A stretch of 64,000 nt of DNA from Acidilobaceae archaeon (GTDB lineage: Archaea > Thermoproteota > Thermoprotei_A > Sulfolobales > Acidilobaceae). Below, one piece after another: positions 39,889-42,015 of this stretch (within the stretch, counting starts at the first letter, position 1; each line of letters starts with the position of its first letter). Both the position numbers and the translations under genes were made by a program. The notes beneath the pieces were generated by a model. The model made no database searches and was not told the DNA's origin. It saw only the letters and a program-made list of their open reading frames with translations. The stretch spans positions 1 to 64,000 of the forward strand of contig JALUAM010000007.1 in NCBI GenBank assembly GCA_027051095.1, written 5' to 3'.

Positions 39889-39980
39889 TGAGCCCCCAGG
39901 GGATGCGCGACGGGCTATACGCCGAGCGCGGGATGAGGAAGTGTCGCGGCAGCTCACCCCCAGGGAGCCCTGGGGGCTCA
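39889..39980. other. 13-bp perfect inverted repeat with competing internal hairpin
   Basis: TGAGCCCCCAGGG (39889-39901) pairs with CCCTGGGGGCTCA (39968-39980); CCCCCAGG (39957-39964) competes for the same right arm with loop GAGC. Confidence 0.65.
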
Positions 39981-40817
39981 AACCGCGGGCTTATCAGCCT
40001 CGGACTCCAGCCTCACCTGCTCTTTAACCCTCCTCTTCACGTCGTCCGGCTCGAAGGGCATAGCAGCTACTAGGCTGTCAGGCGCTACTATGTAACCCTC
40101 CTTTATCAGTTTAAGCAGGGCTTTGTAGGCTGAGTACGCTGCGAGGTCCTCAGACTGCCCGATAGCCATGGCTATGCCCTTGGCTATATCATAGGCCGAG
40201 CGTAGGATTTCCTCGTCCCCGGCTTCAAGCCTATCGCCTTCCCTGAGGGCGTCCACTAGAGCAGCCGCCACGTCTATCCTCAGGTAGACTATGACCCAGT
40301 CGTCAGCGACGCTAACGCTCACCTCGTAGTCATAGTCACCGTCGTAGTCGTCGATTATTATTGGCGCATAGTCCGGGTAGGCGGCTTCGGGCAGACCTTC
40401 CTCGGATACAACGACCACAGCCGTGTTAAGCCTCCTGTTGCTCAGCTTGGACGCGATGCCCTCCACAAGGCCCCACAACTTAACCATGTCCTCGGAGTCT
40501 ATGTCCAGCCAGCGCTCTTCCATGCTGGGGGCTTCGTAGGGCTCTACAGCCTCTAAGGCATTGTACGGCCATCCCTGCCTTGAAGCCGTCTCTAAGGCTA
40601 TCTCCTCCACGTAGCGCGCGATGAGGCTGTCGAGCGCTCTAGCGGCGACAGCGCCGGCTATAACGCCCAGTGCGGCACCCGCTAGCATAGACTCCACTAG
40701 CAGTCCCCTGTCCCAGCCAGCTAGCATCCAAGCCATGAGCCCCGTGAGGGACCCCCACCAAGCCCCTAAGGCGGCGCCTGCGGCCAGCCTCTTAACCCTG
40801 TATCTCGGCGCTATCAC
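39978..40817 (-). CDS. hypothetical membrane-associated protein
   Basis: Two N-terminal hydrophobic segments then acidic soluble domain; no recognised family. Confidence 0.6.
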   Translation of the reverse strand: MIAPRYRVKRLAAGAALGAWWGSLTGLMAWMLAGWDRGLLVESMLAGAALGVIAGAVAARALDSLIARYVEEIALETASRQGWPYNALEAVEPYEAPSMEERWLDIDSEDMVKLWGLVEGIASKLSNRRLNTAVVVVSEEGLPEAAYPDYAPIIIDDYDGDYDYEVSVSVADDWVIVYLRIDVAAALVDALREGDRLEAGDEEILRSAYDIAKGIAMAIGQSEDLAAYSAYKALLKLIKEGYIVAPDSLVAAMPFEPDDVKRRVKEQVRLESEADKPAV

Positions 40818-40899
40818 TTATACACCTCCAGCTGCTCGGCACCAGCATCAAGTCTCGGGGCCACCGCCTATTATATTATAAAGCCTGCAGGGTGCGTGG

Positions 40900-40963
40900 G
40901 GGCCTCGGGGCTACAATGGTTCCCCACGTGCCCGTCGGCCTGCCCATCGTTCCTCACAGGCCC
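40900..40963 (-). ncRNA. box C/D guide sRNA (candidate A), predicted 16S rRNA target
   Basis: Minus: GGGCC-TGTGAGGA-ACGATGGGCAGG-CCGA-CGGGCAC-GTGGGGA-ACCATTGTAGCC-CCGA-GGCCC; both guides 12 nt. TATA-like CTTTAAAACC ~27 nt upstream. Confidence 0.9.
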
Positions 40964-41012
40964 ATAAGCTCTAGGAGTAGTACAGGGGTTTTAAAGAGGG
41001 GAGGCAGGAGCC

Positions 41013-41966
41013 GTGAGGAAGGGCGGGCTACGGCTCAACATATTATCAGTCTTTGACCCCTGGGACAGCCCTCTATGCTACTGCCCGTTCAAGTTCAGCC
41101 TGAACCCTTACACGGGCTGCAGTATAGGATGCCACTACTGCTACGCCACCGCCTATATAGGGTTGAAGCCGAGCCAGGCGAAGAAGAACGCTCTTAACAG
41201 GCTGCTCCGCGACCTCGCGAAAATCCCTCCAGGGGCTATCATAAACGTGGGAACTAGCAGCGACCCATATCCCCCCGAGGAGCGGGAGGTTGGCCTTACC
41301 CGCGCACTTCTTGAAGCCCTTGTGCCCGCGGGCTTTAAGATACTTATAACCACTAAGGGGGTGCTCTACGCTACACGCGATATAGATTTAATATCTAAGG
41401 GTAACGTGGCGGTGACCCCGACTATCACGATGCTCGACGAGGCTAAGGCCAGAGTAGTAGAACCCCTAGCCCCGTCCCCTCTAGAGCGCATCAAGGCAGT
41501 AGAACTAGCTTCGAGGGCCGGGGTACCTGTAGGCGTCAGAGTAGACCCCATAATACCGTATGTAAACGACGACCGCTATGAGATAGAAGAGCTTCTTGGG
41601 AGGCTCGCCGATGCGGGGGCGAGGTTCATAGTGACGAGTACCTATAAGGCGAGGCCGGACAACCTGGCGCGCATGAGGGAGGCTCTGGGCGAGATAGGCG
41701 AGATGGTCTACAGGCTTTACAGGGAAAAGGGTGTAAAGATGCACGGCTACATATACCTGCCCCGCGACATGAGGGAGAGACTCCTAAGGCCGGTCGTAAG
41801 GGAGGCGGCGAGGCTAGGCTTAGAGTACGCCACCTGCAGGGAGGGCTTCAGGGGGAGGGAGTGGTTCAACGCTGGTAGCTGCGATGGAAGCCACTTAATC
41901 CCCCTCAGGATAAAGCCCCGCAGGCTAGCCGAGAGACTGGATAAGTGGCTGGGGGCCTCGGGCTGA
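41013..41966 (+). CDS. radical SAM protein (SPL-like family)
   Basis: SLNPYTGCSIGCHYCYATAYIG; GTSSDPYPPEEREVGLTRALLE; ITTKG. Confidence 0.88.
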   Translation: MRKGGLRLNILSVFDPWDSPLCYCPFKFSLNPYTGCSIGCHYCYATAYIGLKPSQAKKNALNRLLRDLAKIPPGAIINVGTSSDPYPPEEREVGLTRALLEALVPAGFKILITTKGVLYATRDIDLISKGNVAVTPTITMLDEAKARVVEPLAPSPLERIKAVELASRAGVPVGVRVDPIIPYVNDDRYEIEELLGRLADAGARFIVTSTYKARPDNLARMREALGEIGEMVYRLYREKGVKMHGYIYLPRDMRERLLRPVVREAARLGLEYATCREGFRGREWFNAGSCDGSHLIPLRIKPRRLAERLDKWLGASG

Positions 41967-42015
41967 GACCGAGCTCGTCACGAGTCGGGACTGTCAGGCT
42001 CTCCTCACAGGCCCC
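41952..42015 (-). ncRNA. box C/D guide sRNA (candidate C), antisense-overlapping the 3' end of 41013-41966
   Basis: Minus: GGGGCC-TGTGAGGA-GAGCCTGACAGTC-CCGA-CTC-GTGACGA-GCTCGGTCTCAGC-CCGA-GGCCCC; 13-nt guides. Confidence 0.85.

Follow-up and report, generated by a model that had tools for sequence, protein, structure and literature searches.

The question raised by the 64,000-nucleotide stretch of Acidilobaceae DNA analyzed here (the window) is whether the minus strand of positions 40900-40963 encodes a box C/D guide sRNA and which rRNA nucleotides such an RNA would address. The source genome is a draft of 1.43 Mb (83% complete). The locus very probably encodes an archaeal box C/D sRNA of about 60 nt with two guides, predicted to direct 2′-O-methylation of C1402 by the D′ guide and of A1236 by the D guide. 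The analysis shows how the RNA is built, how its guides pair and in which registers, that it is conserved with compensatory changes, and that the genome has the three protein genes; transcription, RNP assembly and methylation are deduced.

The initial annotation had described a complete box C/D architecture including the length of each element, and all elements are present in the exact sequence and conserved across many genomes (Table 1). Read directly from 40963 to 40900, their order is GGGCC-U-GUGAGGA-ACGAUGGGCAGG-CCGA-CGGGCAC-GUGGGGA-ACCAUUGUAGCC-CCGA-GGCCC. A fold test of the RNA (z -2.56) supports the terminal stem. The C and D boxes together with the 5-bp stem are capable of forming a kink-turn (k-turn), as the sheared G.A/A.G positions are intact and the pairs 3b.3n and 4b.4n are both G-C. 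The internal D′ and C′ boxes are also in position. However, the C′ box GUGGGGA deviates from the consensus by a G at one A of the sheared pairs, and it varies among the orthologs as well. This missing A is the main weakness of the proposed function.

The pattern TGAGGA-N9-14-CCGA-N20-45-CCGA occurs twice in the window, with 0.07 matches expected, and none of 100 shuffles reached two. When the bare TGAGGA/CCGA pattern was searched in 31 genomes of relatives, the reversed control gave more matches than the pattern itself. Bare box words are therefore uninformative on a genome-wide scale, and the guides are needed as evidence.

Table 1. Elements of the putative sRNA and adjacent features in the window.
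Feature	Position	Strand	Sequence and remarks
Terminal stem, 5′ strand	40959..40963	-	GGGCC; direct reading, fold, pairing kept in orthologs
C box	40951..40957	-	GUGAGGA where the consensus is RUGAUGA; G replaces U at k-turn position 3b
D′ guide	40939..40950	-	ACGAUGGGCAGG; 16S partner ACUGCCCGUCGC; D′+5 = C1402 (E. coli numbering)
D′ box	40935..40938	-	CCGA; direct reading, comparison of orthologs
D′-C′ spacer	40928..40934	-	CGGGCAC, 7 nt; direct reading
C′ box	40921..40927	-	GUGGGGA, degenerate; GUGAGGA in Thermodiscus orthologs
D guide	40909..40920	-	ACCAUUGUAGCC; 16S partner GGCUACAAUGGC, 11/12 pairs; D+5 = A1236 (E. coli numbering)
D box	40905..40908	-	CCGA; C replaces the U of the consensus CUGA at k-turn position 3n and pairs with the C-box G
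Terminal stem, 3′ strand	40900..40904	-	GGCCC; direct reading, fold, pairing kept in orthologs
TATA-like element	40989..40995	-	TTTAAAA; its centre lies 29 nt upstream of where the stem starts
Second TATA-like run	about 40869-40882		TTTATAATATAATA; between sRNA and 279-aa ORF
279-aa ORF	39978-40817	-	Family without assignment
Radical SAM gene	41013-41966	+	Radical_SAM domain
Second C/D sRNA candidate	41952-42015	-	Stem GGGGCC/GGCCCC, C box UGAGGA, D box CCGA

Guide targets in the 16S rRNA and their conservation

The 16S rRNA of the source species itself was not found in the assembly, and the targets were therefore taken from the 16S rRNA of two congeners. Since the same search also missed the 16S rRNA in several near-complete genomes, its absence from the assembly is not established. 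The alignment of guide and 16S rRNA suggested by the initial annotation yields a match with the rRNA of both congeners. The D guide forms 11 contiguous pairs of 12, with its 5′-terminal A opposite a C, so that the claimed 16S target is real but the complementarity is not perfect. None of 40 shuffled D guides matched the 16S rRNA equally well. By comparison with E. coli rrsB, the target is located around 1232-1243 and the D+5 nucleotide is the equivalent of A1236, i.e., an A, as had been expected from the D+5 rule.

The D′ guide forms nine Watson-Crick pairs and one G.U pair, all contiguous, with the 16S rRNA of the congeners, and the same comparison with rrsB places its D′+5 nucleotide at C1402. 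This match alone is within the range of shuffled guides (6 of 40 were equal) and draws its weight from conservation. C1402 is a P-site cytidine which is 2′-O-methylated by RsmI in E. coli, with equivalents in yeast (Cm1639), human (Cm1703), Arabidopsis (Cm1645), and Pyrococcus abyssi (Cm1369; PMC11542601). The D′ guide base opposite G1405 (window position 40946) is a U in 36 of 37 distinct orthologs, forming a G.U wobble where a C would pair perfectly; perhaps this aids product release. The lengths of the 16S genes in both complete congeners (2202 bases in L009, 1650 in L010) point to introns.

Orthologs were searched with a query consisting of the C box, the D′ guide and the D′ box, with one mismatch permitted and the D guide left out. 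This gave 74 matches in 72 of the 229 genomes of the class, versus six for the reversed control; after inspection of the 74 loci, five were excluded as unrelated or doubtful. The D guide, which was not part of the query, pairs in D+5 register with the 1236 site over at least nine contiguous pairs in 38 of 66 orthologs, whereas shuffled D guides reached eight pairs at this site in 4 of 19,800 trials. In the remaining orthologs (about 40%), which include both complete Aeropyrum genomes, the C1402 guide is kept and the D guide is different or weaker. Am1236 is consequently predicted only for species with the CAUUGUAG guide, which excludes the two complete Aeropyrum genomes, as their D guide differs. 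With the D boxes positioned via the guide and not via the stem, 78% of the cells of the terminal stem are paired across the orthologs, compared to 53% after shuffling (maximum 63%), bearing in mind that the shuffle tests account only partly for the kinship among the genomes. The D′-C′ spacer forms a long self-complementary hairpin in several GC-rich orthologs (L063, L064, L067, L074, L103, and L112), which would convert the usual k-loop to a stemmed k-turn.

Guide and target also vary together. In the Aeropyrum family, 16S U1400 (ACUGCCCG) occurs with an A in the guide (GGGCAG; seven genomes with both known), and in the other families C1400 (ACCGCCCG) occurs with a G (GGGCGG; eight genomes with both known). 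The single exception stems from a low-scoring SSU fragment. Although this probably represents one evolutionary change and is counted as one event, it is the change that would be expected of a working guide.

These data bear on two other readings. The more serious one is a real C/D sRNA with a single productive half, in which either the degenerate C′ box inactivates the D′ half or the D guide is dispensable. The G at a sheared-pair A of C′ fits the former and the variation of D guides among genera, with the D′ guide to C1402 retained, fits the latter, but the 38 orthologs keep both guides with exact D/D′ spacing and the D′ guide follows 16S base 1400, so that this reading appears rather unlikely. 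An rRNA folding chaperone for which methylation is secondary, and which joins two 16S segments separated by about 166 nt, is a still weaker candidate. One RNA whose two guides address separate segments of the 16S 3′ domain would suit such a role, which has been proposed for other archaeal C/D sRNAs (PMC4644070). Chaperoning, however, needs no register that puts D′+5 exactly on C1402, a nucleotide methylated in all three domains, and many orthologs no longer have the D target.

Covariation within the kink-turn boxes

The pair 3b.3n is formed by U5 of the C box and U2 of the D box and is usually U.U in archaeal C/D RNAs (PMC5689011). The window RNA has G-C instead. Among 37 distinct orthologs, with the D box located by the guide alone, 3b.3n is G-C in 11, U.U in 11, G-U in six, A-U and A-G in four each and A-C in one, and no U-C was found in any of the 37. 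Shuffling gave P values for this coupling of 0.0002 (G-C) and 0.0004 (U.U); when each genus contributed a single entry per type, the P value for G-C was 0.005. An exception outside the ortholog family, candidate C6:2524 of the same genome, combines UGAUGA with CCGA, so the rule is not absolute.

A k-turn with G-C at 3b.3n was reported to be unfolded with metal ions and folded with L7Ae (PMC4382518). Based on the coupling and this published L7Ae-dependent folding, the pair GUGAGGA and CCGA reads as a compensated k-turn variant and not as decay, and by the published biophysics a GAGGA/CCGA k-turn should fold only with L7Ae bound. The k-turn of U4 snRNA, whose 3b.3n is mostly G-C or G-U, offers a parallel with the same G-C pair, folding with L7Ae or 15.5k but not in Mg2+ (PMC4382518), although U4 is spliceosomal and lacks the guide function proposed for the window RNA. 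This compensated pair, the D′ target C1402 and the class-wide conservation of both guides go beyond the initial annotation.

Partner genes, promoter and genomic neighborhood

The genes for fibrillarin and Nop5 are adjacent in the source genome (C21:24615-26120), which also has two genes of the L7Ae family. In this genome, other C/D sRNA candidates likewise carry box variants of this kind, along with strong guides to rRNA, so that the window RNA appears as one of a normal set. The candidate C50:29093 has a guide with 12/12 pairs to 23S rRNA. A further one (G000:C69:13238-13285) has a guide with 12/12 pairs to 16S rRNA around the equivalent of E. coli 1408; guide predictions for this site exist from S. 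acidocaldarius and N. equitans (PMC4644070). The target of this candidate shares bases with the target of the C1402 guide, so that simultaneous binding of both RNPs would be precluded.

The TATA-like element proposed upstream on the same strand was recovered as TTTAAAA. Its spacing is the distance expected of an archaeal promoter, and it is probably the sRNA's own. A scan for sigma-70 promoters and terminators, which is ill-suited to archaea, found nothing. From this promoter the sRNA would be transcribed, and the GGGCC/GGCCC stem with the C and D boxes would form a kink-turn bound by L7Ae, while C′ and D′ would form a second, looser motif. Nop5 and fibrillarin would join the RNP after L7Ae. 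The D′ guide is then predicted to pair around the beginning of 16S rRNA helix 44, leading to 2′-O-methylation of C1402 in the P site of the decoding center, and the D guide to pair around its own target, leading to 2′-O-methylation of A1236.

The sRNA lies near the radical SAM gene in all six genomes of the genus. About 1 kb away, the second C/D sRNA candidate of the window overlaps the 3′ end of this gene in antisense; its D′ guide forms 10 Watson-Crick pairs and one G.U pair with the 16S rRNA, which none of 40 shuffles equaled. On the other side, the 279-aa ORF begins 83 nt downstream of the sRNA on the same strand. A k-turn mRNA leader of this ORF with autoregulation of the L7Ae type would suit this arrangement, and L7Ae-binding leaders are described in archaea (PMC6298567). 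Nevertheless, such a leader is very improbable, because a TATA-like run is located between RNA and ORF, both guides are conserved with their rRNA complementarity, and the Sulfolobales orthologs directly follow a tRNA gene instead. Finally, four-base D boxes are common and the reversed control outnumbered the bare pattern in relatives, but chance occurrence of box-like words in GC-rich DNA is refuted by the conservation in 72 genomes, together with the guide-target covariation and the coupling of the boxes.

Comparison with known guide RNAs

Judged by these features, the double-guide sRNA of this Aeropyrum species is taken to be genuine and, apart from its unusual boxes, a box C/D guide sRNA of the ordinary kind. 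It shares its size, stem and the order C-guide-D′-spacer-C′-guide-D with the archaeal box C/D sRNAs of Sulfolobus acidocaldarius, Ignicoccus, and Pyrobaculum, as well as the 12-nt guides, the D+5 rule, rRNA targets and the partner-protein genes, but has GUGAGGA/CCGA where those have RUGAUGA/CUGA (PMC4644070, PMC7994747). The Sulfolobales orthologs L120 and L125 (UGAUGA-CCGAUGGGCGGC-UUGA...UGAUGA-UCCAUUGUAGCA-CUGA) have both guides and both 16S sites in the same order. Unlike the window RNA, they show consensus C, C′, and D boxes with U.U at 3b.3n, nearly no terminal stem and a tRNA gene directly before. In these (L120:73-202, L125:66-195) the sRNA match begins 1-2 nt after the tRNA gene, and in genome G126 (L096:131-295) the match lies shortly behind a same-strand tRNA gene; in both cases tRNA and sRNA are probably co-transcribed.

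In the Rfam search no C/D sRNA was detected in the window at the gathering score. RF01133 (sR3, a Pyrococcus C/D sRNA) has the C/D layout in common with the window RNA, yet a search with this family gave no match for the window copy. Two Sulfolobales orthologs and G126 matched it below threshold (25.9-28.9 bits, gathering score 41 bits). As the guides differ (sR3 is without a C1402 guide), sR3 was rejected as an ortholog. Literature searches with the guide sequences returned only unrelated papers on microRNA and myeloma. The main text of PMC4644070 yielded no guide for C1402 or A1236, and that of PMC7994747 none for C1402. Nor did the main texts searched yield a record of the exact window RNA. 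It is possible that a Sulfolobales ortholog was listed earlier in the supplementary lists of these two papers.

The same cytidine is served by eukaryotic U43/SNORD43-type snoRNAs and bacterial RsmI (Cm1703 in human, Cm1639 in yeast, Cm1402 in E. coli; PMC11542601). RsmI is a stand-alone protein, unlike a guide RNA, and the SNORD43 type is likened to the window RNA by target site alone. The C1402 guide is old and widely retained in the class, and it is a likely guide for Cm1402 in crenarchaea; this P-site methylation is the work of a stand-alone enzyme in bacteria, whereas eukaryotes use snoRNPs. There is a slight preference for the wider view that in the Acidilobaceae and several neighboring families the U.U at 3b.3n was repeatedly replaced by Watson-Crick or wobble pairs (GAGGA with CCGA or CUGA), that the guide RNAs concerned are missed by consensus searches, that RNP assembly is strictly L7Ae-dependent and that the C1402 guide is one case of a genome-wide set. 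As the standard C/D consensus proves too narrow here, the guide RNAs of this lineage are probably under-annotated.
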